A DNA stretch of 15,851 nt. Source: Methylocapsa sp. (lineage in GTDB: Bacteria; Pseudomonadota; Alphaproteobacteria; Rhizobiales; Beijerinckiaceae). The notes beneath the pieces were generated by a model. That model was not told the DNA's origin, ran no database searches, and was given only the letters and a program-made list of their open reading frames with translations. The position numbers and the translations under genes were made by a program. The first letter of the stretch is position 1. Each line of letters begins with the position of its first letter. Location of the stretch: contig JAFMSB010000011.1 of assembly GCA_017353815.1 (NCBI GenBank), forward strand, positions 1-15,851, in the 5' to 3' direction. Shown here one piece after another: positions 1-15,133 of this stretch.

Positions 1-1
1 G

Positions 2-778
2 CCCTATGTCGCAAGCCGCAAGATCGCCCAAGAGAAGAATCCGTGGAAGACTCTTACCGCTATCGAAAACAAGGTTGAGGTGGAATTTTTGCGCCCCGCG
101 CTGCTCGGCGAAAGCATTTTGCCTTATCGCGTCTTCGGGCCGTTTGAGGCGGTCGTCCCCGTAACGGCCAAAGGCGAAATGGTTAATGCCGAGGGCGCGG
201 CCAATCGCGGTTTCGAAGGCTTGCATGGCTGGATGACCAAGGCGGAGAAGGTTTGGGGCGATAACTCCGAAAGCGGCTCCATGACTTTGATCGGCCGCTG
301 GAATTACCACAATGAATTGGGCGCGCAATTTCCGCTCGCGCCGCTGCGCGTCGTTTATGCGAAAGCGGGCAAGCAGCCCGCCGCGTGTCTTCTAAGACAC
401 TCGACGCATGTGATTGATCACAAGCTTTATTGGGCTTCGCTCCAAACCGAAATCGAAGCCAATTATTTGACAGCGATCCTAAACAGCGAAACGGCTCGCT
501 CAAGAATTGAGGCCCAACAATCAAAAGGCCAATGGGGTGCGCGCGATTTCGACAAGGTGATGTTCAACCTGCCGATCCCGCGCTTCGATGCAAAGAACCG
601 CCTTCACAACGCCATCGCTAATGCCGCGCGCGAGGCCGAGAAGATCGCCGCCGCCGCCGCCCTGCCCCAAAACATCAAATTCCAACGCGCGCGCGGCCTC
701 ATCCGCGCGGCGCTGAAAGATGCGGGCATCGCACAAAAAATCGATGCTCTCGTTGCGCGGCTCCTCGATCGGAAATGA
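2..778 (+). CDS. C-terminal part of a probable N-6 adenine DNA methyltransferase / restriction-modification protein (5' end outside window)
   Basis: The frame is open from the left edge (first complete codon at 2) to a TGA at 776-778, so this is the 3' part of a longer gene; the GTG at 80 is internal and not a real start. About 258 residues are visible. The stretch around NYLTAILNSETARSRIE, then GARDFDK and LPIPRFD, resembles the C-terminal target-recognition region of large type II/IIG-like DNA methylases, which modify and sometimes cleave DNA. The SAM-binding and NPPY catalytic motifs would lie upstream and cannot be seen, so the assignment rests on this tail alone. The end is helical and alanine-rich. 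The same reading frame reopens immediately after the stop (see 779-919). Whether a partner nuclease lies upstream is unknown. Confidence 0.6.
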   Translation, partial: PYVASRKIAQEKNPWKTLTAIENKVEVEFLRPALLGESILPYRVFGPFEAVVPVTAKGEMVNAEGAANRGFEGLHGWMTKAEKVWGDNSESGSMTLIGRWNYHNELGAQFPLAPLRVVYAKAGKQPAACLLRHSTHVIDHKLYWASLQTEIEANYLTAILNSETARSRIEAQQSKGQWGARDFDKVMFNLPIPRFDAKNRLHNAIANAAREAEKIAAAAALPQNIKFQRARGLIRAALKDAGIAQKIDALVARLLDRK

Positions 779-919
779 AAGCCAGAATGTCAGGAGCGAG
801 CCAGGCTCACGCTCGATGAAATCAACCATGTGTCTGCTGTTGCGGACGCGCTTGCCTTCACAATCGCACAGATGGCGCGGATCGACGAGGCTTACCTCGC
901 CGCATTTCCCGCTCAGTAA
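779..919 (+). pseudogene. Coding-looking in-frame continuation after the methylase stop codon
   Basis: Directly after the TGA at 776-778 the same frame stays open for 46 codons to a TAA at 917-919. Its translation reads like real protein, with a segment around LTLDEINHVSAVADALAF and an end at EAYLAAFPAQ. There is no ATG with a ribosome binding site, so it is not a convincing independent gene. It may be the original C-terminus of the methylase cut off by a nonsense mutation, the remnant of another gene, or chance. A sequencing error at the TGA would also explain it. Confidence 0.35.
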
Positions 920-942
920 TATAGATCGTGAATTAAAATCTT

Positions 943-1076
943 GCCCGGCATTGAAGCCCTCACCCTGAGGAACGCGCGAAGCGCGTGTCTCGAAGGGGCG
1001 AGGGCGCCTGACGCTACTGGCGCATCCTTCGAGAGGGCCGCTGCGCAGCCTCCTCAGGATGAGGCCGGGCTTTTTT
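943..1076. repeat. Large inverted intergenic repeat (Rhizobiales-type palindrome), terminator-like
   Basis: Two arms in opposite orientation share the same pattern. The left arm (about 956-1007) carries CCTGAGG, then GCGCG, then TCTCGAAGG. The reverse complement of the right arm (about 1018-1063) carries CCTGAGGAGG, GCTGCGCAGC and TCTCGAAGG. The outer boundaries are GCCCGGC (943-949) and GCCGGGC (1064-1070), followed by six T at 1071-1076. Elements of this design are scattered in many copies between genes in Rhizobiales. The outer stem plus T-run could terminate transcription coming from the left. Confidence 0.75.
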
Positions 1077-1119
1077 GCGCGCACATTATTTAAATTCCAC
1101 ACAAACCGGCTTTGGATAA

Positions 1120-1320
1120 CTTTCCGCAAAGCTCGCCTGTGGCAATGCATTGGTGCATTATGCCAGTGATTCGCCATGTTGCGCGGTGGTTCATGGTGTG
1201 TGCCCGTCAACCGTCTATCGCACGATTTTCCCGCAGATGACGTTCTTTTTGCCCAAAGAGGAAAGGGCGCAATTCCGCTTTGAATTCGAGACGGAGATGA
1301 AGCGGCTGCAAAAGGCTTGA
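1120..1320 (+). pseudogene. Possible gene remnant with a coding-looking C-terminal tail
   Basis: A frame open from 1120 (after a TAA at 1117-1119) ends at a TGA at 1318-1320. The last third, reading VYRTIFPQM, then FFLPKEERAQF and EMKRLQKA, looks like a genuine protein end, with charged amphipathic helix character. There is an in-frame ATG at 1237 and a GTG at 1153, but neither has a ribosome binding site. The upstream part is cysteine-rich and less convincing. I do not recognise the family. It lies between two intergenic repeats in a region that looks decayed. Confidence 0.3.
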
Positions 1321-1326
1321 TCAGCG

Positions 1327-1370
1327 CCCTCACCCGGCCTTCGGCCACCCTCTCCCGCAAGGGGAGAGGG
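1327..1370. repeat. Intergenic palindromic repeat with two hairpins
   Basis: This has the common alphaproteobacterial pattern CCCTCACCC followed by GGCC-TTC-GGCC (1336-1346) and CCCTCTCCC-GCAAG-GGGAGAGGG (1348-1356 paired with 1362-1370, a perfect 9-bp stem). Such elements are dispersed in many copies in Rhizobiales genomes. It ends 26 bases before the cupin ATG, so its hairpin would lie in that gene's 5' leader if transcription starts upstream of it. Confidence 0.75.
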
Positions 1371-1396
1371 CAAAAATCTTGCCATGTTTGCTTCTC

Positions 1397-1735
1397 ATGC
1401 AGCTTTCATTCGGCAATCTTTTTGAGGCGGTGGAAAGCAACGAAGCCCAAGAAAGCGTCACGCGCCTTATCGATATGCCGCGTCTCAAGATCGAGCGCAT
1501 CGTCTCTTTGGGACAAAAAAGCCCGCCGGGATTTTGGTATGATCAGCCCTTCGCCGAATGGGTTGCGGTCTTAGCCGGCTCGGCGGGGCTGCGCTTCGAG
1601 GGAGAGGATGCGATCAAAGTAATATCATCGGGCGGCTATGTCCTCATTCCGGCGCGCGCAAAACACCGCGTGGAGTGGACGGAAAAGGACCGCCCCACCA
1701 TCTGGCTTGCGGTGCATTTCCCCGAAACCGGCTAG
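1397..1735 (+). CDS. Small single-domain cupin protein with a degenerate metal site
   Basis: The gene encodes 112 residues. The pattern FWYDQPFAEWVAVLAG (about 46-61), then the glycine turn SSGGYVLIPARAKHRV (77-92), is the two-motif cupin beta-barrel. Function within the cupin superfamily cannot be assigned. Most metal-binding cupins have HxH...E in motif 1; here Tyr48 and Gln50 stand at the two histidine positions, while Glu54 and the motif-2 His90 remain, so metal binding may be altered or lost. The ATG at 1397 is chosen; a TTG at 1379 in the same frame would add six residues. Neither has a clear ribosome binding site, which leaves the start uncertain. A palindromic repeat ends just upstream. 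The next gene, dedA-like, starts 97 bases downstream on the same strand. Confidence 0.8.
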   Translation: MQLSFGNLFEAVESNEAQESVTRLIDMPRLKIERIVSLGQKSPPGFWYDQPFAEWVAVLAGSAGLRFEGEDAIKVISSGGYVLIPARAKHRVEWTEKDRPTIWLAVHFPETG

Positions 1736-1832
1736 AGGGGCGGGCGCGCAGGCAAAAGCCACATTTGCGCGCGGCTCAAATTTAGGGTTCACTCCAAATC
1801 GTGCTGCAAGCGCCGAAAAGCTGGGCAAGCCA

Positions 1833-2462
1833 ATGGCCGTGACCGCCGAAATCGAGCATCTTTTTGGGAATCTCGCGCCCTACATCCATAGCTACGGCGC
1901 CGCGGCGGTCGTCGTCATTCTGACGTTTGAGTCGATCGGGGCGCCGCTACCTGGCGAATCATTGCTCATCTTCGCGTCGGTGCTCGCCGCGCGCGGCGAA
2001 ATATCGCTTCCCGTCCTCATGCTCGCGTCTTGGGCGGGCTCGGTGTTGGGCGATAATATTGGCTATCTTCTCGGCTGGCGTTTTGGCCGCGGCCTCATCC
2101 TGCGCTACGGAGCAAGGTTTGGCATCAACCAGGAGCGCATGGGCAAGGTCGAAGCAGTGTTTGCACGCTATGGCGCTTTTACCGTTGCTTTCGCGCGGTT
2201 CGTCAACGTGCTCCGCCAGCTGAACGGCGTCGTGGCAGGCATCTTGCGCATGGATTGGAGGCACTTTGTCTTCTTCAATGCGCTTGGCGGCGCGCTTTGG
2301 GTTACGGTCTGGTCGCTCGCAGGCTATTATCTTGGCAAGCACGTCATGAACCTCGGGGCGGCTGCGCATACACTCGAGCATGGCGGCGCGCTTGTGGGCG
2401 TCGCCGTGCTGGCACTCGTGCTTATCTACGCCGCCGCATCGCGAGGCCACAACAAGGGCTGA
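1833..2462 (+). CDS. DedA family inner-membrane protein
   Basis: This is a 209-residue DedA/SNARE-associated (VTT-domain) integral membrane protein. The characteristic run is visible: FESIGAPLPGE (32-42), GSVLGDNIGYLLG (69-81), then RFVNVLRQLNGVVAGILRM (122-140), with the conserved arginines Arg122 and Arg128 and acidic Glu33 and Glu42. Hydrophobic helices lie at about 22-31, 43-53, 60-82, 145-168 and 185-201. DedA proteins are linked to membrane lipid (undecaprenyl-phosphate or phospholipid) flipping and to proton-motive-force homeostasis. The ATG at 1833 matches the usual family length; the same frame is open further upstream but that part has no membrane or domain character. The gene converges on pheA, with 53 bases between the two stop codons. 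Confidence 0.92.
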   Translation: MAVTAEIEHLFGNLAPYIHSYGAAAVVVILTFESIGAPLPGESLLIFASVLAARGEISLPVLMLASWAGSVLGDNIGYLLGWRFGRGLILRYGARFGINQERMGKVEAVFARYGAFTVAFARFVNVLRQLNGVVAGILRMDWRHFVFFNALGGALWVTVWSLAGYYLGKHVMNLGAAAHTLEHGGALVGVAVLALVLIYAAASRGHNKG

Positions 2463-2467
2463 CCATA

Positions 2468-2494
2468 GCTCGCGCCAAAAAGCCCGCCGCGAGC
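2468..2494. terminator. Inverted repeat between convergent dedA-like and pheA genes
   Basis: A perfect 7-bp dyad, GCTCGCG (2468-2474) and CGCGAGC (2488-2494), has a 13-base loop and lies between the two convergent stop codons. The position suits a shared bidirectional terminator. There is no T-run on either side, so intrinsic termination is not certain. Confidence 0.35.
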
Positions 2495-2515
2495 CGCACA
2501 GCGTTGTTGGGTCCC

Positions 2516-3379
2516 TCACCGTGCGCCGTTTCGCCTTTGACTTTCGAGCCGGTAGGGATGAGCCGGATAGACACCGAGGATCTTCAGTTCCTTGCAAAAG
2601 AAGGCAAGCTCTTCCAGCGCGCGCGCAAGACCCGGCTCCTCGGGGTGTGCCTCCACATCGGCCAGAAATTGGGTCGCGATGAACTCGCCTCCGACCATAT
2701 AGCTTTCGAGCTTGGTCATGTTGACCCCGTTTGTGGCGAAGCCGCCGAGCGCCTTGTAAAGGGCGGCCGGCACATTGCGAACCCGGAAAACGAAACTTGT
2801 CACGACACATCCCGGCACGGGCTTCGTCCATTGCGGATCTTTCGCCAGCACGGCAAAGCGCGTCGTGTTGTGCGGCTCGTCCTCAATATCGGCGGCGAGC
2901 ACCTTTAGGCCGTGGATCTCGGCAGCAAGCCGGGTCGCAATCGCCGCACGGCTTGGGTCGGCGCATCCAGCAACCTCGCGCGCCGATCCTGCGGTATCGC
3001 CGGCGACATGTGCCGCAAGCCCATGGGCGCGGATGATCTTGCGGCATTGGCCGAGCGCATGGATATGACTGTAGACGGTGCGGATCTGGTCGAGTCGCGC
3101 CTCTTTTATGCCAAGCAGCTGGAAATGAATGGGCAGAAAATATTCCCCGACAATGAAGAGCCCTGAGGCCGGTAAAAGATGATGGATATCGGCCACCCGC
3201 CCGGCAATCGAGTTTTCGAGCGGGATCATTCCGAGCGCCGCGGTGCCGTCCGTGAGCGCCCCGAGGGCGTCCTCGAACGTCGCGCAGGGTAAGGGCTCCC
3301 AATCCGGATAGACGCCGTTGCAAGCGATATGGGAATTGGCGCCCGGTTCGCCCTGATAAGCGATTTTCTTGGCCGTCAA
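2516..3379 (-). CDS. pheA: Prephenate dehydratase
   Basis: This 287-residue monofunctional prephenate dehydratase converts prephenate to phenylpyruvate in cytosolic phenylalanine synthesis. The N-terminus KKIAYQGEPGANSH (4-17) is typical of alphaproteobacterial PheA. The catalytic motif NTTRF is at 171-175, with the essential Thr-Arg-Phe. An ACT regulatory domain spans about 193-270, with the GVNMTKLESY stretch (218-227) corresponding to the phenylalanine-binding region, so feedback inhibition by phenylalanine is expected. No chorismate mutase domain is present. The best-fitting start is TTG at 3377-3379, because it gives the family N-terminus and no ATG fits; the ribosome binding site is weak. 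It lies 41 bases after the five-helix membrane gene on the same strand and may be co-transcribed with it. Confidence 0.95.
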   Translation of the reverse strand: MTAKKIAYQGEPGANSHIACNGVYPDWEPLPCATFEDALGALTDGTAALGMIPLENSIAGRVADIHHLLPASGLFIVGEYFLPIHFQLLGIKEARLDQIRTVYSHIHALGQCRKIIRAHGLAAHVAGDTAGSAREVAGCADPSRAAIATRLAAEIHGLKVLAADIEDEPHNTTRFAVLAKDPQWTKPVPGCVVTSFVFRVRNVPAALYKALGGFATNGVNMTKLESYMVGGEFIATQFLADVEAHPEEPGLARALEELAFFCKELKILGVYPAHPYRLESQRRNGAR

Positions 3380-3420
3380 CTCGATACCCAGTGCGGATGG
3401 ATTCGTGCGGCTGTCCGCTT

Positions 3421-3960
3421 CTATAAAGACCGGAATGCGAGCGGCACGGAGAAATACACCATGATGACAACCAGGATCGCAATGGCAAAGGCCATCACCA
3501 CCTCGGCGCGGTAGGAGCGGCGGAACAAGAATGCATAGACAAAAATGTTCCAGACATAGATTGGAAACAGCAGAAATGCCTCGAGTTCCCGCACATTGAC
3601 TTCCGGGAGTTCCGAGAAAACAGGCGAGATATAAATGAAAAAGCCAAGCGCCGTCCGGATGAAGATGACAATCGCGCCACCCAGCGCCAGCGCCGACAGC
3701 GTCTGGAGCAAGCGATCCCTATAGCCGGAAAGATAAGCCCATCCCGACGCGACCGCAGAGAGCACAACGGCCGCGCCAATTCCGCTTGCCGCCGCCCTTG
3801 CCGGAGAAAAGGAAGTGCCTTGAAACAGAAAGACCGCCACCGCGAAGGCCGCGAGGCAGATCGCAAGCAACGACCGCGATTTCGGCAGCACGTCCGCGCC
3901 AAGCGTGAAGTTCAATATACCAGCGACCTTCTGGATCGGTGTTGGGAGCGCGAATTTCAT
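3421..3960 (-). CDS. Five-helix inner-membrane protein of unknown function
   Basis: This 179-residue protein has hydrophobic segments at about 30-47, 55-78, 88-112, 127-146 and 154-174, separated by short polar loops such as SGYRDRLLQ (78-86) and FRRSYRAE (146-153). Its arrangement is broadly like Yip1-type or similar small polytopic proteins, but I do not recognise a named family and give no function. The ATG at 3960 is preferred; a TTG at 4020 would add 20 polar residues and has its nearest GGGAGG too far away. The start at 3960 itself lacks a strong ribosome binding site. It is on the same strand as the pmo genes, 159 bases after the secreted protein, and 41 bases before pheA. It could belong to the end of the pmo transcript or form a unit with pheA. 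Confidence 0.85.
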   Translation of the reverse strand: MKFALPTPIQKVAGILNFTLGADVLPKSRSLLAICLAAFAVAVFLFQGTSFSPARAAASGIGAAVVLSAVASGWAYLSGYRDRLLQTLSALALGGAIVIFIRTALGFFIYISPVFSELPEVNVRELEAFLLFPIYVWNIFVYAFLFRRSYRAEVVMAFAIAILVVIMVYFSVPLAFRSL

Positions 3961-4071
3961 GATTTGATACGCTGATTGCTTGAGGCAGAGACTTTTTGCT
4001 GTGCCTATTTTAGCCGCCAAAGTTGATGCCGCCGTTGCCTCCCTCTGGACAAGGCGGGCGGCAGTGCACCC

Positions 4072-4095
4072 GAGCCGGGCCCCTTCACCCGGTTC
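4072..4095. other. Weak hairpin in the spacer before the five-helix gene
   Basis: GAGCCGGG (4072-4079) and CCCGGTTC (4088-4095) pair except at one position, around an 8-base loop. It lies 25 bases past the stop of the secreted pmo-linked gene. No T-run follows in the minus direction, so it is at best a weak candidate for the end of the pmo transcript. Confidence 0.25.
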
Positions 4096-4119
4096 AGAGC
4101 CGAGGCGGCCAGACAGTAA

Positions 4120-4734
4120 TCACGCCGCTTTCTTTGGCGTCTCCTGTTGTTTCAGATAGAAGCGCCACAACCCGAAACCCGCAGCCCCTACGAGCGCAGC
4201 CAAAAGACCCCAGATCGCGAAAGTTTTTCCAACAGGGGTGCCAACCGAGAAGGGAAACTGCGAGACATAGGTCTGGCCGTGGTCATTCTTCACGGTCACG
4301 AGTCCAATGAACTTTCCCTGCTCCGGAAACGTATGTTCGAATGTCAACGTGCCTGTTGGATATTTTTTCGGCGCCGAGTAAAACACCGTTTTCGATTGAA
4401 GGGTTGCCGTGTCGCCGAGTTCCGCTTCCGTCAGATAGGGATAGCCATTCAATGTTGTATGGGTACCCATATCCTTGATGATCCGAATCTCCGTCGTCAT
4501 ATCGCGGAGTTCTTTTTCCTGCATGTCGAGCGCGACGACCATTTGACCGGCATTTGGGATGTCGTCGCAAAATTCTTCCCGGGAAAGCTGCGGCTGATAG
4601 CCTGTGAAATACATGATATCCGGGCCTATCTTCATGATGCATTTGTTGCCCTGCACCGAGACGCCGCCATGCGCAAAAGCGGCCGATGTACCTAAAACCA
4701 TGGCGAAAAGCCAGGCTGCACTTGCGCGTATCAT
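4120..4734 (-). CDS. Exported, C-terminally membrane-anchored protein encoded directly after pmoB; putative copper/assembly partner, function unknown
   Basis: The protein is 204 residues long. A signal peptide (1-21, ending SAAFA) should be cleaved before HGG, giving a mature N-terminal histidine (His22). A periplasmic domain of about 150 residues follows, then one membrane helix at about 171-194 and a short lysine-rich cytoplasmic tail. Visible features are Cys32 and Cys56 (possible disulfide or metal pair), the segments MYFTGYQPQLSREEFCDDIP and TGTLTFEHTFPEQGKFIG, and His92, His134 and His152. The family resembles, from memory, uncharacterised exported proteins of nitrifiers and methanotrophs. 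The topology matches PmoD/AmoD, but I do not see their copper-site pattern and do not name it so. A GGGAGG ribosome site lies 10 bases before the ATG. It follows pmoB by 98 bases, with a strong hairpin between. A copper-related role is inferred from context and the mature N-terminus only. Confidence 0.9.
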   Translation of the reverse strand: MIRASAAWLFAMVLGTSAAFAHGGVSVQGNKCIMKIGPDIMYFTGYQPQLSREEFCDDIPNAGQMVVALDMQEKELRDMTTEIRIIKDMGTHTTLNGYPYLTEAELGDTATLQSKTVFYSAPKKYPTGTLTFEHTFPEQGKFIGLVTVKNDHGQTYVSQFPFSVGTPVGKTFAIWGLLAALVGAAGFGLWRFYLKQQETPKKAA

Positions 4735-4760
4735 GACAGGATTACCTCCCTAAATGAATT

Positions 4761-4790
4761 CCCCCGCCGGGGCCTGGGCTCCAGCGGGGG
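4761..4790. other. Strong stem-loop between pmoB and the downstream exported-protein gene
   Basis: CCCCCGCCGG (4761-4770) pairs with CCAGCGGGGG (4781-4790), a 10-bp stem with a single G.U-type position and a 10-base loop. It lies 42 bases past the pmoB stop and upstream of the next ribosome binding site. In the minus direction no T-run follows, so it looks more like an mRNA 3'-end stabiliser or partial attenuator after pmoCAB than a full terminator. Confidence 0.7.
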
Positions 4791-4832
4791 AAGCATCACA
4801 TTATATTGACCTTCTGTTGCCGTTCCGATGGC

Positions 4833-6110
4833 TCAGACGGGAAGGAAGGACGGGATGACAGCGCCGCTGAGCTCCACCATATACCGTTCACCGCTCGGGG
4901 AGAAGAAGAACAGCATACCTGCGAAGGAGCTATCGACGTCATACGCCAGACCCGAGAGGCGCTCGGTATCCCACCTTGCGTCCTGGATGGTTATGGTCAC
5001 ATCCCTCGTCTCGCCCGGCTGGATCGGAGACGGATCGCTGAGCGACAAGCCTCTTTCTGCCAGCAGATAGTCCGGGTAATCCACCTTGGAGGTGTAGACG
5101 TCCGGATTCAGGAAGCGCAAGCCAGCGGTGATGAACTCGCCCACCCGCAGCGGCTCTTTGCCGCTGTTGGTGATCTTTAAGTTTGCCGTGAGCTCGCGGC
5201 CCGGCACCTTGTAGGTCCCGCCAAGGAATTTAATCTGGACCGGGGATGCCGGCTCGTCGATCGCCGGGATGTTCCGGAAATCACCAGCCTGCAGCGGGAT
5301 GGTGTTCGGATAATTGCTGGCCGCAATCGAATAGCCGATGATTACGACGAGCAGTGTTGCACCAAGCGTGACTGCCCCCACCAAGCGTTCTTGAGGCGTG
5401 ATGACCTCTTCCTCCTTGCCGGAAGCCACCCACATGAACCGGCCAAGCAGACCGCGGCGTGTGAACCAGTACCAAATCCACGCAGCCGCCACGATCATCC
5501 AGAAGGCATGCCAGAGATAGATGCTGGTGATGCCATAGGTCTCGAGGTTGATCGTCGAGCCGTTCAGCAACTTCACGGGATCCGTGAAGTCAGCAAAGTT
5601 GCCCTTGATGTCGATATATTGACCCGGGCCAGGGATCGGGCCGCCGGTCTCGACACTCAGCTGAACATGCGTGTGCCAATGCCCTGGACGGCGCGCCCTG
5701 AGCAGCATGCGGAACTCATAGGTCTTGCCGACTTTGAGCTCCATCGAACGGGGTGTGAACTGACCGCCCACCCAGACGCCAATGCGGTTTGCCATGGCGC
5801 CGGGCTGTCCGACGTTGACGAAGCACCGCTCGGGAACACGAATAGACGCCGGCCAAGCGTTCATGATGTGAAGCTTGCCGGTGATCTCATATTCCTCGTT
5901 GACGTTGACCTGCGTCTTCGACCACTTGAGATCATACCATCCCAAAGTCCGCATGCGGAGGAAAGCCGCCTGCGACTTCTCGCCATGGGCATCGGCCGGT
6001 CCGGCGGACGCCATGGTAAGGGCGAGTCCAGCAGCCAGGGCGAGAGCCCAGAGCCTCCCCGCATGGCGCGTTACCAGCCGCGCCAGCTCAGTCAATATTC
6101 TTGTTTTCAT
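4833..6110 (-). CDS. pmoB: Particulate methane monooxygenase subunit B
   Basis: PmoB (425 residues) is the largely periplasmic, copper-binding subunit of the membrane enzyme that oxidises methane to methanol. The signal peptide ends at Ala41, leaving His42 as mature N-terminus (His33 in Methylococcus capsulatus). The other CuB ligands are His146 and His148 in WHTH. Two cupredoxin-like domains flank two membrane helices at about 197-216 and 243-264. At the bis-His site, position 57 (Methylococcus His48) is Gly, while His81 (His72) is kept. The numbering offset of nine holds at all these sites without gaps. The ATG at 6110 is chosen because GGGAGAG lies 8 bases upstream; an in-frame GTG at 6134 would bury that site. 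It sits 75 bases after pmoA and ends in the typical FFF...IPSF tail. Confidence 0.98.
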   Translation of the reverse strand: MKTRILTELARLVTRHAGRLWALALAAGLALTMASAGPADAHGEKSQAAFLRMRTLGWYDLKWSKTQVNVNEEYEITGKLHIMNAWPASIRVPERCFVNVGQPGAMANRIGVWVGGQFTPRSMELKVGKTYEFRMLLRARRPGHWHTHVQLSVETGGPIPGPGQYIDIKGNFADFTDPVKLLNGSTINLETYGITSIYLWHAFWMIVAAAWIWYWFTRRGLLGRFMWVASGKEEEVITPQERLVGAVTLGATLLVVIIGYSIAASNYPNTIPLQAGDFRNIPAIDEPASPVQIKFLGGTYKVPGRELTANLKITNSGKEPLRVGEFITAGLRFLNPDVYTSKVDYPDYLLAERGLSLSDPSPIQPGETRDVTITIQDARWDTERLSGLAYDVDSSFAGMLFFFSPSGERYMVELSGAVIPSFLPV

Positions 6111-6126
6111 TGCGTTTACTCTCCCA

Positions 6127-6141
6127 CACGGCACAGCCGTG
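6127..6141. other. Hairpin just upstream of the pmoB ribosome binding site
   Basis: CACGGC (6127-6132) and GCCGTG (6136-6141) form a perfect 6-bp stem with a 3-base loop. The stem ends next to the GGGAGAG ribosome binding site of pmoB (about 6119-6125), so it could modulate translation or protect the 5' end of a processed pmoB message. Confidence 0.5.
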
Positions 6142-6160
6142 GTTGTCTCGGATTACCCCT

Positions 6161-6177
6161 CAGTCCCTTCGGAACTG
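6161..6177. other. Second hairpin in the pmoA-pmoB spacer
   Basis: CAGTCCC (6161-6167) pairs with GGAACTG (6171-6177) with one G.U-type position and a 3-base loop. It lies immediately downstream of the pmoA stop codon on the transcript. Confidence 0.45.
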
Positions 6178-6185
6178 TGCGGCGC

Positions 6186-7052
6186 TTAGATGGACTTCAT
6201 GTATTTCACGGTGGAGAACATCTTCCCGACGTGCCACCACACGAAATACACAATGATCGAGACGAAGCCGCCGAAGAACGCCGCCACGCCGACCACGTCC
6301 TTACCGAAGGTCCGCATCGTGCCGCGCTCGATAATCCGGATGTACTCGGGCATCGAGGTGCGCACATAGTGATAACCAATGAGATCGGCGACCGTCATGA
6401 GCTGGCCATACTGCTCGCTCGGCAGATGGAACTGCGCGAGGATGACCCAGTTATTGGGATACATCAGCAGCGAGAATCCCATCGAGCCCACGATCATGGT
6501 GATGATCCAGCTCCTGCTCAGCAGCAGCACGATGTCCATGAACAATGCCATCGGGATGAGAGAGGTCGGCCAAATGAGGTTGACCGGATAATAGGTCCAG
6601 CCCCAAAAGTTGACGTAGCGGTCGATCCACTCGCCGACAAGCAGCGCGGCGCAAAGGAAGGTCGCGCCGAACGGCAACCGGTAGTGCACCCAGAAGAAAT
6701 ACTGGGCCGCGGCCGGGAATGTCACCAGCAGAATCGGCACAACGGTCGGCCACATGCGGCGGTCTTTCCAATCTACCCAGAAATCCCAGTCGCCCATGGT
6801 CAGCATGGCATGGACGTGGTAGCCGCCAATCATGATGAGGAACAGGAACACCAGCGCCAAGAGATCGGCGGTCTGGATGGCTCCCGCAGCCTCGGCGCGC
6901 GAAGTGAACGGGGAGGACCCCCCACCCGCAAACGCTATGTTGGGGGCCGCACGCGGCACATTGGCGCCGGCGCCGCCCTCGATTCCTGGCGACGCCAGGA
7001 TCGATTCGGTCACCGGAGCAGCCCCGGTTTTCCCTGTTTTGTTTCGTAGCAT
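6186..7052 (-). CDS. pmoA: Particulate methane monooxygenase subunit A, with extended N-terminus
   Basis: PmoA (288 residues) is the integral membrane subunit widely used as a marker of methane oxidisers. Diagnostic stretches are GGYHVHAMLTMGDWDFW (76-92), WKDRRMWPTV (95-104), GEWIDRYVNFWGWTYYP (140-156), YPNNW (198-202) and VRTSMPEYIR (230-239). About seven hydrophobic segments run through the rest. The family is usually about 247-252 residues; here about 37 extra residues rich in Gly, Ala and Pro precede the conserved FTSRAEAAG (49-57). The start is well supported: GGGAGG lies about 6 bases before the ATG at 7050-7052, and no internal Met occurs before residue 74. These features are PMO-like rather than ammonia-monooxygenase-like. 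It lies 192 bases after pmoC and 75 before pmoB. Confidence 0.98.
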   Translation of the reverse strand: MLRNKTGKTGAAPVTESILASPGIEGGAGANVPRAAPNIAFAGGGSSPFTSRAEAAGAIQTADLLALVFLFLIMIGGYHVHAMLTMGDWDFWVDWKDRRMWPTVVPILLVTFPAAAQYFFWVHYRLPFGATFLCAALLVGEWIDRYVNFWGWTYYPVNLIWPTSLIPMALFMDIVLLLSRSWIITMIVGSMGFSLLMYPNNWVILAQFHLPSEQYGQLMTVADLIGYHYVRTSMPEYIRIIERGTMRTFGKDVVGVAAFFGGFVSIIVYFVWWHVGKMFSTVKYMKSI

Positions 7053-7127
7053 ACTATCCTCCCAGTTACTCCCCCGGACACGGTGGCCGGATCGACAGAG
7101 TAGGTTTCAGTTGGAATGTGTTTTCTA

Positions 7128-7200
7128 GCTCAGCCCTGGCGGGGCCGCCTCCCGGGGCAGGATTGGTCCCGGAAAACGGCCCGCGCTGGTTGGGCTGAGC
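7128..7200. other. Long-range stem-loop in the pmoC-pmoA spacer
   Basis: GCTCAGCCC (7128-7136) and GGGCTGAGC (7192-7200) are a perfect 9-bp inverted repeat enclosing 55 G+C-rich bases. Inside, GGCGG (7138-7142) and CCGCC (7145-7149) form a smaller hairpin. It starts 44 bases past the pmoC stop. Stem-loops between pmoC and pmoA are expected where pmoC message is processed and stabilised separately. Confidence 0.7.
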
Positions 7201-7244
7201 GCCTCGCGATCAGACCAACGGGTCCTCAACACACGAAGCGCTTG

Positions 7245-8036
7245 TTATTCCGCCGGCTCAAGTCCGACGAGATCCTCATGTCCCTGGGCAAGCTCCATCA
7301 TGCGCCCATGAATCTGCAGCACAACGCCGAAGACCGCGAGCGAGAACCAGCCAAAGAACACAAACATCCAGTGCAACGGAGCAACGAACAGTTCCTCCAT
7401 GAACCAGAAGGTGTGGCCCCATTCATTGAGCCCGACGTTCGGGAAGATCATGAACGGGCCAACAAACAGAAGGACATAGGCGATCGACCAGCCCTTGCAG
7501 GCAAAGGTCGGAAGCCGCGTCCTTGCATACATGAAGCCGCCCACGCCGACGACGATATAGAGCGGATAGCTCATGTAGAACTCAATGATGTGGCTCGGCG
7601 TGAAGTCGGTGTCGCGGATGACCGTCATATGCCAGGTGCCATCCTGCTCGGTGAAGAAGCTGGCGCCCCAGTAGATCGCGATGCCATAGCAGAAGATCCA
7701 GCCCAGCAGGGCGAACATGCGGCGCATTTCCTCCCGGGGCTGGACCTGGGCGACATTTGTGTCGCGGGTCTTCCACATCCAGCCGATCAAGGCGAGGAAG
7801 GAGATCAGCTCGACCGGCTCCTCGATATAGAGGATGGTCATCCAATAGGTGGTGAACTCGGGCGCGAAGGAGTCAAGCCCATAGAGCTGGCCAAAGGCCT
7901 GCTCATATATCCGCACGCAGACATAGAAGATGCAGATCGCAGCGGCTCCGAGGATCACCGGTACCCCGTTGAATACGGGCTTCTCGGCAACAGCGGCGGC
8001 TTCGCCTGCGCGTGTCGTTCCTGTTACTAAGCTCAT
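7245..8036 (-). CDS. pmoC: Particulate methane monooxygenase subunit C
   Basis: PmoC (263 residues) is the integral membrane subunit carrying the CuD and CuC copper sites now thought central to methane oxidation. The CuC ligands (Asp156, His160, His173 in Methylococcus) appear as Asp132, His136 and His149 in QDGTWH and FTPSH. The CuD ligands (Asn227, His231, His245) appear as Asn204, His208 and His222 in LNEWGH and APLHW. Hydrophobic segments alternate through the protein as expected. The ATG at 8036 is chosen because GAGG lies 8 bases upstream and the length then fits the family; the frame extends to 8135 but that stretch has no PmoC character. It is the first gene of the pmo operon, which begins downstream of typA on the same strand. 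Confidence 0.98.
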   Translation of the reverse strand: MSLVTGTTRAGEAAAVAEKPVFNGVPVILGAAAICIFYVCVRIYEQAFGQLYGLDSFAPEFTTYWMTILYIEEPVELISFLALIGWMWKTRDTNVAQVQPREEMRRMFALLGWIFCYGIAIYWGASFFTEQDGTWHMTVIRDTDFTPSHIIEFYMSYPLYIVVGVGGFMYARTRLPTFACKGWSIAYVLLFVGPFMIFPNVGLNEWGHTFWFMEELFVAPLHWMFVFFGWFSLAVFGVVLQIHGRMMELAQGHEDLVGLEPAE

Positions 8037-8316
8037 GATACTAGCCTCATAGCTTGATTGGCTTTTCAGCCTCGTTACCACGTGCCAACGCCTGCAGGGC
8101 CTATTGGCCATGCATGCGGCTAGCACTAGCAACACTGCCGGAAAAATATGCGCGGCAAAAAAGAAGGGAAATCGTTTGTTCTTATCGGCTGCAGAGAAGC
8201 TGCTTATAGGCTTTTAAAACCATCGCCTCCCTGGCAGCATGAGCCCAGCACGCGCTTGCGGATTGCAACGTTTTCCAATGGCATCGCCGGAGCCAAAGCT
8301 GCAACATAGACTTGGG
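8037..8316 (-). promoter_or_regulatory. Upstream control region of the pmo operon
   Basis: These 280 bases between the typA stop and the pmoC start must hold the typA end and, most likely, the pmo promoter and leader. I cannot identify a convincing -35/-10 pair. Features seen: dyads GGCC-tatt-GGCC (8098-8109) and GCTAG-ca-CTAGC (8119-8130), a T6 run on the minus strand near 8157-8162, an A+T-rich patch with TATAAG around 8205-8217 (minus strand), and a CACGTG palindrome near 8079-8084. The role is inferred from position. Confidence 0.45.
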
Positions 8317-10137
8317 TCAGGCGCTTTCCCTGGCGCGAAGAGCACGCTTGCGATCGTTTGGGTCGAGGAGCGCCTTGCGCAGCCGGATCGACTTCGGCGT
8401 AACCTCGACGAGCTCATCGTCCTCGATATAGGCAAGGGCCTTCTCAAGCGTCATCCTGACTGGCGGGGTCAGGCGCACTGCCTCGTCTTTACCTGCGGCG
8501 CGAATATTTGTGAGCTGCTTGCCTTTCAGTATATTGACCTCGAGGTCGTTGCCGCGGCTGTGCTCACCGACGATCATGCCCCGGTAGACCTTGCAGCCGG
8601 GATCGATCATCATCGGGCCGCGATCCTCGAGCTTCCACATGGCATAAGCGACGGACTCGCCGCCGTCGTTTGAAATCAAGACGCCCGTGCGCCGCCCGGC
8701 AATCTCGCCCTTCCATGGCGCATAGGCATGAAATAGCCGGTTCATGACCGCCGTGCCGCGCGTGTCGGTCAAAAGCTCCCCCTGATAGCCGATAAGCCCG
8801 CGCGTCGGCGCATGAAAGACGAGCCGCAGCCGCCCGCCGCCCGAAGGGCGCATTTCAACCATCTCGGCCTTGCGCTCCGCCATCTTCTGCACGACGGCGC
8901 CGGAAAATTCCTCGTCGACATCGATCACCACTTCTTCCACCGGCTCAAGAAGCTGGTTCATCGCTTCGTCTCTCTGCGACACGACTTTTGGCCGCGACAC
9001 GCCAAGCTCAAATCCCTCCCGGCGCATGGTCTCGATCAAAATGGCAAGCTGCAATTCGCCGCGCCCAGATACGAGGAAAGAATCGGAGCCTGGCGAGTCT
9101 TCGACACGCAACGCGACATTGCCTTCGGCCTCTTTATAGAGCCTTTCGCGGATTACGCGGCTCGTCACCTTATCGCCTTCGGTTCCGGCGAGCGGCGAGT
9201 CATTGACCATGAATCGCATCGACAAGGTCGGCGGATCGATCGGCTGCGCCCGCAGGGGGTCTTCGATTTCAGGAGAGCAAAGCGTGTCGGCGACGGTGAA
9301 TTTTTCAAGCCCCGCGATCGCAACGATGTCGCCCGCCTCCGCTACCTCAAGCGGCACGCGCTCGATACCGCGGAAGGCAAGGATCTTGGAGACCCTGCCC
9401 TGCTCGGATAAATTGCCAGCGCGATCTAAAACCTTGACCGCCTCATTGGGCCTTATGCTGCCAGAAAAAATCCGCCCAGTGATGAGCCGCCCGAGATACA
9501 GATTGGCTTCAAGCAATGTGCCGAGCATGCGAAAGCCGCCCTCTGCGACAGAGGGCGAAGGGACATGCGCAAGGATAAGATCGAAGAGCGGCGCCATGCC
9601 TTCGTGCGGCCCGTCTGGGCTTAAGGACATCCAGCCTTGCTTTGCCGAGCCGTATAAGATCGGAAAGTCGAGCTGCTCCTCGCTTGCGCCGAGCGCGGCG
9701 AAGAGATCGAAAACCTCATTGACGACCTCGCCAGGGCGCGCGTCCGGCTTATCGATTTTGTTGACCGCAACAATAGGTTTGAGGCCGATCTTCAGCGCCT
9801 TGCCCACAACGAATTTGGTCTGCGGCATCGGACCCTCGGAAGCATCGACGAGCAAGATCGCGCCATCCACCATGGAGAGAATGCGCTCCACTTCGCCGCC
9901 GAAATCGGCATGGCCGGGGGTGTCGACGATATTGATCCTCGTATCCTTCCACGCAATTGAGGTGACCTTGGCAATAATTGTTATGCCGCGCTCCCTTTCG
10001 AGATCGTTCGAATCCATGACCCGCTCGGCGACCCGCTGATTTGCGCGGAACGCGCCGGATTGTTGCAGCAGACGGTCGACGAGCGTCGTCTTGCCATGGT
10101 CGACATGAGCGATGATAGCGATGTTGCGAAGCTTCAT
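8317..10137 (-). CDS. typA: Translational GTPase TypA/BipA
   Basis: This 606-residue ribosome-binding GTPase is related to EF-G and LepA and acts in ribosome assembly and stress or cold adaptation. The GTPase motifs are complete: G1 AHVDHGKTT (10-18), G2 ERGITI (49-54), G3 [11 protein letters not shown] (72-82), G4 NKID (126-129) and G5 GSAK (about 163-166). The rest covers domain II, the EF-G-like domains III and V, and the TypA-specific C-terminal domain, including [22 protein letters not shown] sequence. Length equals the E. coli protein almost exactly (about 607). The ATG at 10137 gives the standard [11 protein letters not shown] start. It is a housekeeping gene immediately upstream of the pmo control region, with no obvious functional link. 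Confidence 0.98.
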
Positions 10138-10284
10138 TCCGGATCTGATCCATTCCTGCGCTCGCGCAAGTCAGCAAGGCGTTGCGCAAGCCGCGATGCA
10201 ATTGTTTGGGGTTTTTGCTGCCAGCCGGTCATTTTTTCATATGGGGTGGCATCTTGGAATTTGCAGCATTATGACCCGGGCAGG

Positions 10285-11088
10285 TCAGTGCTTCCAATAA
10301 CTATGGAAGTGATTTACGGGTCCGGGGCCATGGCCGGCGCCGAGCGCGCCGGAGGCCGCAAGAGCCCCATTGAGATAGGTTTTGGCCGCGCTGGCCGCCT
10401 CGGCGAGGGGCAAGCCGCGGGCGAGAAATGCCGCGATCGCCGAAGATAAGGTGCATCCAGTGCCATGCGTGTTGCAAGTTGCGACGCGCGGGGTGGAAAA
10501 CACCCGGCAGGACTCGCCGTCAAACAACAAATCGTCCGATGTTGCTCCTTCCGCATGGCCGCCCGTGATGAGAACTGCTTTTGCGCCGCGCCCATGGAGA
10601 AGAGAAGCCGCGCGGCGCATGCCTTCCGCATCCGGCGCAATGACATGGCCCGAAAGCCGGGCCGCCTCCGGAATGTTCGGGGTGATCAGCGTCGCAAGCG
10701 GAAAAAGGTGCCGGATGATAGCCGCGGCGGTATCGGATGTCGCCAGCGCTTCCCCGCTTGTTGAGGCAAGGACGGGGTCGAGGACAATGAAAGGGGGGGT
10801 GTAATAGGATAGGCGCGCCGCGACCTCCTCCACGATTGCCCCGCAAGCCAGCATCCCGATTTTGACAGCGGCGATCTGGGCGTCCTCGAAGATGGCATCG
10901 ATTTGCGCCGCGGCGAAATCGGCCGGCGGGACATGCAAGCCTTTGATGCCTTGGGTATTTTGCGCGGTTAGCGCCGTAATGGCGGCCATGCCGTTGCATT
11001 CAAGCGCGGCAAAGGTCTTAAGATCGGCCGCGACTCCTGCCCCGCCGCTAGGGTCAAAACCGGCAATCGAGAGAAGGTTCGGAATCAT
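10285..11088 (-). CDS. thiD: Hydroxymethylpyrimidine/phosphomethylpyrimidine kinase
   Basis: ThiD (267 residues) phosphorylates HMP and HMP-phosphate to HMP-pyrophosphate, the pyrimidine half of thiamine. It is a ribokinase-family enzyme: the N-terminal SIAGFDPSGGAGVAADLKTF (7-26) binds substrate, VLDPVLAS is at 102-109, and the anion-hole and catalytic motif HGTGCTLSSA (208-217) carries Cys212 next to the GTG turn. The ATG at 11088 with AAGG about 9 bases upstream gives the normal length; the frame is open a further 340 bases upstream but without kinase character. No other thiamine genes are adjacent and I see no TPP riboswitch upstream. It is on the same strand as typA, 147 bases upstream of it. 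Confidence 0.97.
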   Translation of the reverse strand: MIPNLLSIAGFDPSGGAGVAADLKTFAALECNGMAAITALTAQNTQGIKGLHVPPADFAAAQIDAIFEDAQIAAVKIGMLACGAIVEEVAARLSYYTPPFIVLDPVLASTSGEALATSDTAAAIIRHLFPLATLITPNIPEAARLSGHVIAPDAEGMRRAASLLHGRGAKAVLITGGHAEGATSDDLLFDGESCRVFSTPRVATCNTHGTGCTLSSAIAAFLARGLPLAEAASAAKTYLNGALAASGALGAGHGPGPVNHFHSYWKH

Positions 11089-11462
11089 GGCTCTGACCTT
11101 AGGCCGGCCCGGTTGTGGCGCATGACTAACATCGAAAGCAGCCGATTGTTTAGCGCCGGCCCATCCGTGCTTTGCGGCAAGCTCAGGTTCCTGCTTCCTT
11201 ACTATCGAGGAGCGCGATGCCGGCCAAGCTGGCCGGCCCCGAAACCGGAAATTTTTCTTGCTGCCAAGACTATCTCCGCACTCAGCTCGGGCGTTGGCCG
11301 CACGAGGGGGGAATGTGCCTGGCAGGCATGCGGATTTCTTTGTTCCGGCTAGCCGCTCCGCGCTTGAAAATGCCTCAATCTTTCCCACTTGCTGAAACGT
11401 CACCCGCACCGCTTCGATTGCGTCAAACAACCAAACGCAAAGCTAAGGTTTGAGTGCCGCCG
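11089..11462. other. Divergent intergenic region between thiD and the DUF2948 gene
   Basis: These 374 bases separate two divergent starts and should hold both promoters, though no clear promoter pair stands out. Frames open here have no recognisable protein character. The one structural feature is the perfect palindrome at 11219-11237. A short T-run (about 11250-11256) lies nearby. Confidence 0.4.
11219..11237. repeat. Perfect 8-bp palindrome upstream of thiD and the DUF2948 gene
   Basis: GCCGGCCA (11219-11226) and TGGCCGGC (11230-11237) are perfectly complementary around AGC. It sits in the divergent promoter region, 130 bases from the thiD start, so it could be an operator or a leader hairpin. 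No regulator can be named. Confidence 0.5.
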
Positions 11463-11948
11463 ATGACGGACCTTCCTCCGCTGATTGCTTTTGACGCCGA
11501 TGATCTTTCTGTCATCGCCGCAAATTTGCAAGACGCTTTGGTGCGGGTCACGGATATGACCTTTCTGCCGCATTCGAAACAATTCGCACTGGTGGCTTCG
11601 CGTTTCGATTGGCTCAACGCCGCCAAGCCAGGGCGGAAGCCTTGTTGCGAGCGCTGCCGCACCGGCGTGCTTTTCGGCCGGGTGCTCAAGGTTTCCTGCC
11701 GCGGTTTTTGCCGCCGGGATGGCGGCGAGGTACTTAATCTTCTCGACATCGCCTTCCGGGAAACGGCGCCGCCCGCCGGGACCGTGGAGTTGATATTTTC
11801 GGCTGGCCGGGCCCTGAGGCTTGAGGTTGAATGCCTGGAAGCTGAAATTCGCGACCTCGGCCATCGCTGGAAAGCCCGCGCCACTCCCTGTCATTTTGTT
11901 GGCGGCTGGTGGACAATTGCCGCCCCTGTGGCGCGCGGGACACAATAG
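11463..11948 (+). CDS. DUF2948 family protein (alphaproteobacterial, function unknown), cysteine-rich variant
   Basis: This 161-residue protein resembles DUF2948, a small uncharacterised family found in alphaproteobacteria. The segment DADDLSVIAANLQDALVRV (11-29), a central basic region and a C-terminal LEVECLEAEIRDLG (120-133) followed by a His/Trp-rich end (HFVGGWW, 144-150) fit the family. Unusually, cysteines cluster at 61, 62, 65, 79 and 83 (CCERC...C...C), plus 124 and 143, which could form a metal site. No signal peptide is present, so it is cytosolic. In many alphaproteobacteria the family lies beside murA/hisD; here it does not. The ATG at 11463 is taken by family pattern; an in-frame GTG at 11454 has AAGG 5 bases upstream and would add three residues. 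Confidence 0.85.
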   Translation: MTDLPPLIAFDADDLSVIAANLQDALVRVTDMTFLPHSKQFALVASRFDWLNAAKPGRKPCCERCRTGVLFGRVLKVSCRGFCRRDGGEVLNLLDIAFRETAPPAGTVELIFSAGRALRLEVECLEAEIRDLGHRWKARATPCHFVGGWWTIAAPVARGTQ

Positions 11949-12053
11949 GCGCAATTTTCTGCCACGCGATGCTCTCCCGGGAGCTTGGGCTTGCTCCAGC
12001 CCTGCTCGCATGCGAAGATTACGCTGCCGCTCCTAGGACCACGGAACGCATCA

Positions 12054-12314
12054 ATGACCTTTTTGAAGATTGCCGTTGCGGTAACCGCCTTGTGCCTGGG
12101 TTTGCTCTTGCCTGGAACCCCGCAGGCCCGGCCGGTCGGGACCGTGAACTGGATGCCCTTTTTTGCCCAGCCTTATCCTTTCGGCTTCGATTACCGTCCA
12201 CCGCCGATGCAATGTTACGACATTCAGGAGGTTCAGACACCGGCCGGACCCATGATCCAACAGATTTGGACCTGTGACGGCGGCGGCGAGGCACGGGTGC
12301 GGGCAAGGTATTGA
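12054..12314 (+). CDS. Small secreted hypothetical protein
   Basis: This 86-residue protein has a clear signal peptide (basic start, hydrophobic core 5-20, predicted cleavage after PQA at 25). The mature part of about 61 residues is rich in Pro, Tyr, Phe and Trp (for example MPFFAQPYPFGFDYRPPP, 34-51) and has two cysteines, Cys54 and Cys74, likely a disulfide in the periplasm. I do not recognise a family. The ATG at 12054 has only a weak ACGGAA upstream; the frame stays open to 11985 but that part is not signal-like. It converges on the transglutaminase-like peptidase gene with 43 bases between stops. Confidence 0.65.
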   Translation: MTFLKIAVAVTALCLGLLLPGTPQARPVGTVNWMPFFAQPYPFGFDYRPPPMQCYDIQEVQTPAGPMIQQIWTCDGGGEARVRARY

Positions 12315-12326
12315 CCGCAGCCAGGC

Positions 12327-12350
12327 CCCGGTTCCATCCGCGCTACCGGG
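12327..12350. terminator. Hairpin between two convergent genes
   Basis: CCCGGT (12327-12332) and ACCGGG (12345-12350) form a 6-bp stem with a 12-base loop between the stop at 12314 (+) and the stop at 12358 (-). Placement suggests a shared terminator, but there is no proper T-run after the stem in either direction. Confidence 0.3.
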
Positions 12351-12357
12351 AAAATCT

Positions 12358-12984
12358 TCAACGCGAAGCTTCTGGTGTGGCGTGTTCGTCGGGATTTTCA
12401 ATTAAAACCCAAAAATTGGGATTTTCTTGCGACTGCCGTTTGACGAAGCGGTAGCCCGTCGCAAACCAAAGTTTTATCTCGTCCGTCAGATTATCGAGAA
12501 TAAAATCGCCGCCGCTGGTCCTGACGGTCAAAATGGCATGGCCTTGATCGTTGCGATCTTTTGCGATGGTCATTAGAAGAGCTTGGCGGGGAAAGCCCTT
12601 CTGCATAAGTATCCGGCGCTTTTCGAGCGCATAAATCTTGCAATCGCCTTTTCCATCCGCCGGGTAATCCCAGTGATCGATCCGCGTCCCCCAATGATCG
12701 AGGTTTGAGACCGGCTCGATCGCGGAATTGACCGCTCGATTGACCGTGACCAACGCGCCCCAGGCCGAAGCCGTAAGATCCGCATTCGTTGGGGCGAGGG
12801 GCGGCAGGTTGCATTCTTGCGGCTGACGCGAGCAAAAATCCATCCAGCCGAAAGGCGCCGAGGTCCTGCCGCCCGTCGTCGCGAATCTTGCCATGGGCGG
12901 TGCGCCCGCCGGGTGCTCTCTGCAAACCAAGCTAGCTGAGGCAAGAGCAGCTGCCCATGCGGCGCAAAAAATCCTGTTCCTCAC
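12358..12984 (-). CDS. Bacterial transglutaminase-like cysteine peptidase (BTLCP / DUF920)
   Basis: This 208-residue exported protein of the bacterial transglutaminase-like cysteine proteinase family (PF06035) is common in alphaproteobacteria and related to LapG-type periplasmic proteases. The catalytic triad can be read as Cys115 in KGDCKIYALEKRRIL (113-127), His149 in GHAILTVRT (148-156) and Asp164 in FILDNL (161-166). Conserved family positions include the early FGWMDFC with Cys51 and Cys58, and INxAVNxAI-like VNRAVNSAIEP (81-91). The signal peptide is at 1-28. The GTG at 12984 is chosen because AAGGA lies 8 bases upstream and it gives a normal signal sequence; the frame runs on to 13074 with basic, unconvincing residues. 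Substrate unknown; no LapD partner or adhesin is visible nearby. Confidence 0.88.
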   Translation of the reverse strand: MRNRIFCAAWAAALASASLVCREHPAGAPPMARFATTGGRTSAPFGWMDFCSRQPQECNLPPLAPTNADLTASAWGALVTVNRAVNSAIEPVSNLDHWGTRIDHWDYPADGKGDCKIYALEKRRILMQKGFPRQALLMTIAKDRNDQGHAILTVRTSGGDFILDNLTDEIKLWFATGYRFVKRQSQENPNFWVLIENPDEHATPEASR

Positions 12985-13135
12985 TGCTTCTGTCCTTGGC
13001 CGCGAGGGACGGGTTTTCCTGCGGCCTTCGCGTTTAGGGAGGCAGCTTAGCGCCAGCGGTTTAGACTTCCGCAAATCGAACTGTTAAGATGCAAGCAAGC
13101 GATTTTGGTAGGGCCTTCGAGCAAAGGGCGAAAGC

Positions 13136-13969: not shown

Positions 13970-14101
13970 GCTCGAGCCTGTTCCGGGGCGGGGCTAACAG
14001 CTAGCCGATTGGGACGGGGATGTCAGCCGCTCCCGCAGCGTGGCGCCGCATTCCCCTGTGCGCGAACCGCCGGGCCAGAGGGCGCGGCCAGATCTGGGTG
14101 G

Positions 14102-14137
14102 CCGGATCGCCCCTATCATCCGGATCGCCGCTATCAT
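14102..14137. repeat. Two-copy 18-base tandem repeat upstream of the phosphatase gene
   Basis: The unit CCGGATCGCC-N-CTATCAT occurs at 14102-14119 and again directly at 14120-14137, differing at one base only. It lies in the 232-base divergent region between the rhomboid and phosphatase genes, 65 bases before the chosen gph start. It could be a duplicated operator or simple slippage. Confidence 0.7.
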
Positions 14138-14201
14138 AAGGACTGGCGGGGAGGGCGCTTTTGCCTTGACTGGGATTGATGCGCGCCTTACCGCTTCTGC
14201 A

Positions 14202-14918: not shown

Positions 14919-15021
14919 TGGTGGGATGAGGCGCTGCGGCGTCTGCGCGCTTTCCGCTCGGCTGGAATCGGCCGGGCGATAAGAAATCGCGCCAAATCAA
15001 CAAGCTGGAGCGAATTCGGGT

Positions 15022-15045
15022 CGCAAAAGTCTGCCAACTTTTGCG
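15022..15045. other. Perfect 9-bp inverted repeat between gph and tRNA-Val
   Basis: CGCAAAAGT (15022-15030) and ACTTTTGCG (15037-15045) pair perfectly around CTGCCA. It ends 13 bases before the tRNA and about 100 bases past the gph stop. It could terminate gph read-through or bind a regulator; no long T-run follows. Confidence 0.6.
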
Positions 15046-15058
15046 CAATTTGCTCTAA

Positions 15059-15133
15059 GGGCGCGTAGCTCAGCGGGAGAGCACTCCCTTCACACGGGAG
15101 GGGTCACAGGTTCAATCCCTGTCGCGCCCACCA
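15059..15133 (+). tRNA. tRNA-Val (anticodon CAC), CCA encoded
   Basis: The cloverleaf is complete: acceptor stem GGGCGCG (15059-15065) with CGCGCCC (15123-15129), D arm AGCTCAGCGGGAGAGC, anticodon stem CTCCC/GGGAG around loop TTCACAC with anticodon CAC at 15091-15093, and T arm ACAGG-TTCAATC-CCTGT (106-122 of the 15000 block). The discriminator A (15130) is followed by an encoded CCA. Anticodon CAC reads the valine codon GUG. Confidence 0.98.

Follow-up and report, generated by a model that had tools for sequence, protein, structure and literature searches.

An operonic PmoD without the CuA ligand pair and with a predicted N-terminal histidine in a methanotroph related to Methylocapsa and upland soil cluster alpha

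The window considered here, 15,851 nucleotides from Methylocapsa sp. (assembly GCA_017353815.1, contig JAFMSB010000011.1, positions 1 to 15,851), carries on its reverse strand the particulate methane monooxygenase (pMMO) genes pmoC, pmoA and pmoB, followed by an open reading frame (ORF) at 4734..4120. Sequence and context identify this ORF as the pmoD of the operon in a methanotroph related to Methylocapsa and upland soil cluster alpha; its product is a known kind of protein in variant form. Sequence comparison and structure prediction show a cupredoxin domain (residues 28-165 approximately) followed by a membrane helix at the C-terminus; Cys32 and Cys56 are invariant, the link to pmoB holds both for the family and for gene position, and Met49 and His51 of the characterized PmoD 6CPD have no counterparts. 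On the same sequence and model data, we hold with moderate confidence that the protein is anchored in the membrane and serves pMMO as a periplasmic copper carrier or assembly factor, with an N-terminal surface site and no CuA centre. An earlier note, made from the sequence alone, had proposed that an uncharacterised exported protein, facing the compartment of PmoB's copper sites, could be the local copper or assembly partner, and had seen neither pmoD nor copCD in the window. The proposed partnership gains support from PmoD/AmoD membership and from co-occurrence with pmoB; the label "uncharacterised" and the absence of pmoD fall, because the ORF itself is pmoD and belongs to a known family. 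No copCD was found among the 14 window ORFs run against Pfam.

PmoD has been put forward as a possible missing link in how pMMO and ammonia monooxygenase (AMO) work, its unusual CuA site being the headline property, and in the passages cited here the tested PmoD/AmoD members bind copper (Fisher et al., PMC6189053). In Methylosinus trichosporium OB3b, normal growth on methane under copper-replete conditions depends on the operonic pmoD, and a disruption of pmoD impairs growth with ample copper (PMC6189053); a Methylacidiphilum PmoD expressed in Methylomonas reportedly couples with its pMMO in acetone oxidation (PMC8764830).

Sequence and model together place the product of 4120..4734 in this family. 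It has 629 homologues at E <= 0.001, far beyond chance, and matches 6CPD at E 2.9e-23 (phmmer) and E 1.8e-29 (profile). Residue counts below refer to the homologue lists examined, which hold the best 120 of 629, the best 120 of 164 and the best 120 of 684 matches. The hydrophobic N-terminus ends in AFA and is followed by HGG, and a second hydrophobic stretch lies near the C-terminus. An AlphaFold2 model built on 149 diverse homologues (pLDDT 90; an earlier run on 25 close homologues, pLDDT 64, was not used) predicts a helix at residues 2-14, a beta domain at about 25-164 and a single helix at 168-197. The model and sequence thereby predict the family architecture of signal peptide, periplasmic domain and single C-terminal membrane helix, and the predicted fold is a cupredoxin fold like that of 6CPD. 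The two strictly conserved cysteines of the family are represented by Cys32 and Cys56, present in 120/120 listed homologues. The earlier note had described the ORF well in its coordinates, ATG start, good ribosome-binding site, place after pmoB, two cysteines, three further histidines besides His22 (His92, His134 and His152) and single C-terminal helix, which the model predicts with high confidence. No Pfam or NCBIfam model covers the protein, the sole NCBIfam row being Spo0A at E 0.1. When contigs were scanned, an alignment query returned six loci and a single-protein query none. The features of the gene, all on the reverse strand, are as follows.

4120..4734 (-): pmoD, 204 amino acids from an ATG start, motif Cx8MYxnC, predicted mature N-terminus His22
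4745..4750 (-): pmoD ribosome-binding site GGGAGG (4750..4745), 10 nt 5' of the ATG, from the sequence
4672..4734 (-): predicted signal peptide, residues 1-21, ending A-F-A, from A19/A21 invariance in 120/120 listed homologues and the model helix 2-14
4669..4671 (-): codon of His22, predicted mature residue 1, His in 120/120 listed homologues
4612..4641 (-): Cys32-Met41 segment (then Tyr42), alignment counterpart of the 6CPD CuA segment C41...M49-x-H51
4567..4569 (-): codon of Cys56, equal to Cys65 of 6CPD in alignments
4144..4233 (-): predicted C-terminal transmembrane helix, residues 168-197, from the structure model

The CuA site of 6CPD uses Cys41, Met49 and His51, and replacement of Met49 or His51 abolished it; CuA was formed by Cx7MxHxnC members only, and the Cx8MxnC PmoD tested did not form it (PMC6189053). 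Alignments place Cys32, Ile40 and Tyr42 of the window PmoD at these three positions, so that the CuA-forming motif is lost through Met49 to Ile40 and His51 to Tyr42. The AmoD motif Cx8MHxnC is likewise absent: its Cys and Met are present, and its His is replaced by Tyr. The window PmoD instead fits the Cx8MxnC class defined by Fisher et al. (PMC6189053), having Cys-x8-Met, a second Cys and no adjacent His. Of the 120 close homologues listed, 119 have Met at position 41; position 42 is occupied by F in 94 and by Y in 26 (F/Y in 120/120). The 120 listed CuA-type proteins have M at position 40 in 120, I or V at 41, and H at 42 in 119 (N in one), and the 120 listed proteins from a Nitrosomonas AmoD query have H at position 42 throughout.

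Operonic pmoDs of alpha-proteobacterial methanotrophs are stated to have Cx7MxHxnC (PMC6189053), a generalisation that the window PmoD, by its sequence, contradicts. The difference extends across the genus. None of 35 PmoD-like ORFs from all 10 pMMO-positive genomes of the window genus has Cx7MxH (the set leaves out two short fragments, G586:C26:2-97 and one in G172:C148 without the Cys segment), whereas a Cx7MxH PmoD was found in 17/17 genomes of the two sister genera (Fisher p 1.2e-7, kinship not accounted for). The operonic copy reads Cx8M[FY] in the window genome (G000), USCa_AHI (G172), G198, Methylocapsa bog_942 (G586) and G588; Cx8MH in G584 and Methylocapsa palsarum NE2 (G585); and Cx9H in G126, and none lies within the operon of G185. 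The CuA-type match of G164 carries one in-frame stop as reported, yet an open 203-residue ORF with the motif can be read there.

The association with pMMO holds well beyond the window. Across 199 genomes of the family, a PmoD homologue (E <= 0.001) occurs in 22 and PmoB in 20, and all 20 have both, as the expected co-occurrence with pmoCAB would have it (20/22 PmoD-positive genomes of the family and 10/10 of the genus have PmoB). Homologues widespread in genomes lacking pMMO, which the earlier note had named as evidence to the contrary, did not appear: PmoD without PmoB is confined to 2/179 pmoB-negative family genomes (G057 and G164). One PmoD of G057 starts 563 bases from a contig end, and its pmoCAB may therefore have been lost in assembly. 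The 15 genomes of the window genus divide into 10 with PmoD and PmoB and 5 with neither; a 6CPD query on one of the pmoB-negative genomes, G144, gave a weak match only (E 0.19). The gene lies directly 3' of pmoB in eight genomes of the genus, and is not so placed in G185; in the Antarctic RRmetagenome_bin15 (G587) the locus is divided between contigs.

The second distinguishing feature is the predicted N-terminal histidine. Because A19, A21 and H22 are each found in 120/120 listed homologues, cleavage after A-x-A leaving His first is the natural reading, which agrees with the mature HGG start suggested earlier. The first mature residue is also H in 120/120 of the listed AmoD-type set. Of 369 genomes sampled from the class to which Nitrosomonas genome G296 belongs, 12 carry a homologue at E <= 1e-5, and H follows the by-eye cleavage site in 17/20 distinct ORFs (two near-identical, from one genome); these ORFs came from 20 of 23 matches, three without a locus being left out. 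Judged by sequence, then, the N-terminal His is a widespread but not universal feature of the family. Candidate partners for a histidine brace with this predicted, invariant residue are His92 (120 of the 120 listed homologues), His134 (119) and His152 (117). In every construct of Fisher et al. the vector adds Ser and Met to the N-terminus (PMC6189053), so that a free N-terminal His would be covered, and the main-text passages found in that paper do not discuss the residue. Searches of the open-licence PMC literature on AmoD N-terminal histidines and on pmoD of the upland soil cluster listed no paper whose title takes up this point.

Alternatively, the histidine could be a side effect of constraints on the signal peptide or on export, or contact a protein partner, and be no metal ligand, an explanation compatible with other roles of the protein. 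An H-G after the predicted cleavage site does recur in PmoD subfamilies with different downstream motifs, and in the window PmoB (ADAHGEKSQ). However, the listed CuA set has E in 102, A in 8, D in 5, Q in 3 and a gap in 2 at the equivalent of His22, yet mostly keeps Ala at -1 (117/120), so export itself does not need an N-terminal His. In periplasmic copper proteins, PmoB and CopC among them, an N-terminal histidine commonly serves as a ligand. We regard this explanation as somewhat unlikely.

Less probable still is a structural or assembly subunit in which Cys32 and Cys56 form a disulphide, the C-terminal helix packs on pMMO and copper binding is incidental. The equivalent cysteines are disulphide-bonded in the 6CPD crystal and structural stabilisation is among the roles proposed by Fisher et al. 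(PMC6189053); the C-terminal helix is, in addition, predicted with high confidence. A scaffold role alone nevertheless leaves the invariant His22 and near-invariant Met41 unexplained, and the five PmoDs whose copper loading is covered by the passages cited here all bound copper (PMC6189053). The least likely is a redox protein that supplies pMMO with electrons from a dinuclear copper centre made of Cys32, Met41 and His22 (in place of His51), the CuA role surviving through ligand replacement. The bridging-cysteine equivalent Cys32 is invariant, Met41 lies one residue from the lost Met49 position, an N-terminal histidine is available and electron supply is among the listed roles. Against this, 6CPD loses CuA when Met49 or His51 is replaced, and the tested Cx8MxnC PmoD formed none, though from constructs with extra N-terminal residues (PMC6189053).

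Under the favoured reading of a copper carrier or assembly factor, export and signal cleavage would leave His22 as the first residue, and the PmoD domain would sit in the periplasm beside pMMO. Copper would be bound on the N-terminal surface by His22, Cys32, Met41 and perhaps Cys56, with no CuA dimer. The protein would then hand copper to pMMO or steady it during assembly, with no electron passage via a CuA centre.

Several points weigh against this account. G185 has pMMO without a PmoD in that operon, though with six PmoDs elsewhere. The window genome is only 78% complete, so the absence of a CuA-type PmoD from this genome alone is weak evidence. The tested Cx8M protein of Fisher et al. came from Methylocystis parvus and is matched to the window PmoD here by motif. 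An H start is found by pattern in 19/35 ORFs of the window genus, L140 being a false match, and many paralogues lack it (row L129, scored without it, is a cut-short sequence). A CuA-motif homologue beside AmoD in Nitrosomonas G296 also has His after its predicted cleavage site. Finally, Cys32-Cys56 could be a structural disulphide, like the equivalent pair in the 6CPD crystal (PMC6189053).

We put forward a wider proposal tentatively: that pMMO of Methylocapsa and upland-soil-cluster-alpha methanotrophs, among them lineages linked to uptake of methane from the atmosphere, works without any CuA-type PmoD; that His1 (His22), Cys32 and Met41 of the operonic PmoD form a different copper site, for delivery; and that, across PmoD/AmoD, the N-terminal His is a ligand that has escaped notice, being absent through loss from the best-studied subclass and covered in the published constructs. 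If some pMMO-positive genomes have no CuA-motif PmoD, as the ORFs read here from the window genus suggest, CuA chemistry would be no general need of pMMO and attention would turn to copper delivery, for which the widely shared histidine makes an N-terminal copper site testable. One assembly in the window clade, USCa_AHI, takes its name from upland soil cluster alpha, a group linked to atmospheric methane uptake (PMC6849597).

The remaining elements of the locus, again on the reverse strand, are listed below; the distance from the pmoB stop to the pmoD start is 98 nt.

7245..8135 (-): pmoC, PF04896 E 5.6e-103; the ORF opens at GTG, and the real start is probably further inside
6186..7052 (-): pmoA, PF02461 E 1.9e-107
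4833..6134 (-): pmoB, PF04744 E 2.5e-140, and tree
4759..4792 (-): GC-rich hairpin between pmoB and pmoD, TTCCCCCG...CGGGGGAA, kept at the same place in the genus
3421..3960 (-): conserved 179-residue membrane protein, 3' of pmoD in the genus by genome comparison, function unassigned by family models

A 110-nt stretch containing the hairpin (4792..4759) folds at -45.6 kcal/mol (z -2.8, 2/200 shuffles as good). Its CCCCCG...CGGGGG element occupies the pmoB/pmoD gap in all eight genomes so arranged, stands 3' of pmoB in G185, and recurs between a lone pmoC and pmoD in G198; no such element was found at four other pairs of lone pmoC and pmoD (L083, L086, L087 and L179). In five genomes scanned whole, 6/9 distinct sites are at pmo genes and 3/9 away from known ones (G000:C14, G000:C238 and G198:2841383). 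One stem pair varies C-G, T-G, T-A across the genus (by eye), and most hairpins of the genus lack a strong U-run, unlike many 3' of pmoB in sister genera. Co-transcription of pmoB and pmoD is plausible. The hairpin may act on the pmoCAB message by capping or trimming it, and may keep pmoD at a lower level.

The gene of the 179-residue protein lies 3' of pmoD in the eight genus genomes with pmoB-pmoD, 3' of pmoB in G185, and far from pmoB in sister genera with long contigs (e.g., G078, G114, G146, G161, G177 and G190). Neither Pfam nor NCBIfam assigns the protein to a family (the best row, a weak one found with the G198 relative, is Yip1 at E 0.0018), and it occurs in 23/199 family genomes, namely all 22 PmoD-positive ones and a weak match in G097 (E 1.6e-4); it is possibly a pMMO-associated membrane protein. 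A spare pair of lone pmoC followed by a pmoD homologue recurs in the window genus (L080, L179, L083 and L086, in G198, G588 and, twice, G185). A second, divergent copper monooxygenase cluster in bog_942 (L177, G586:C101), perhaps pxm, has the order A-B-C and 39-43% identity to the window PmoA/B/C, with no pmoD match within the 6.5 kb searched. The window genome also holds a second PmoD-like gene (L002/L076, G000:C41:9273-9719) with a methionine-rich stretch, MDMNMNMGCMLMAGMHE; it and its G198 counterpart (L093) both adjoin oxidoreductase-like and glycosidase-like ORFs (named by eye), and similar ORFs occur in G172, G185, G584, G586, G587 and G588.

The PmoD tree groups the window protein in a clade of 14 rows (100/99) that also contains G172, G198 and the Antarctic assembly; which group is sister to this clade is uncertain (80/70). 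All listed alpha CuA-type proteins fall in one other clade (100/99), together with L068 of G185, which lacks the motif, and the Nitrosomonas CuA-motif protein sits on a long branch outside it. In a quick PmoB tree the window sequence clusters with G172, G198 and bog_942 (99) and stands away from both PmoB groups of the sister genera.

Compared with 6CPD (Met49242_1452 of Methylocystis sp. Rockwell), which has Met49 and His51, the window PmoD has Ile40 and Tyr42, and its residues around 92-98, including invariant His92, align to gaps. It also differs from 6CPD and the listed CuA-type proteins in its predicted N-terminal His, where the latter have E, A, D or Q (a gap in two). Identity to CrdA of Helicobacter pylori and to CopC is about 12-14%, near the background of unrelated beta-sandwich rows, and no family link is claimed. 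Closer in form are the non-operon Cx8M PmoDs of sister genera g18 and g42 (e.g., L007-L023, which are 50-57% identical to the window PmoD), which share A-x-A then HG[GD]V and Cx8M without a following His; the window clade is separate from them in the tree, and twelve neighbourhoods of 12-13 kb (nine of these 17 loci, plus L028, L030 and L031) gave no match to pmoA, pmoB or pmoC. Nitrosomonas AmoD (query L098:31-660) resembles the window PmoD in its predicted mature H-G start, its CxnC pair and the location of its gene near amoB, and AmoD-type proteins differ at position 42, where all 120 listed have His and the window clade has F or Y.
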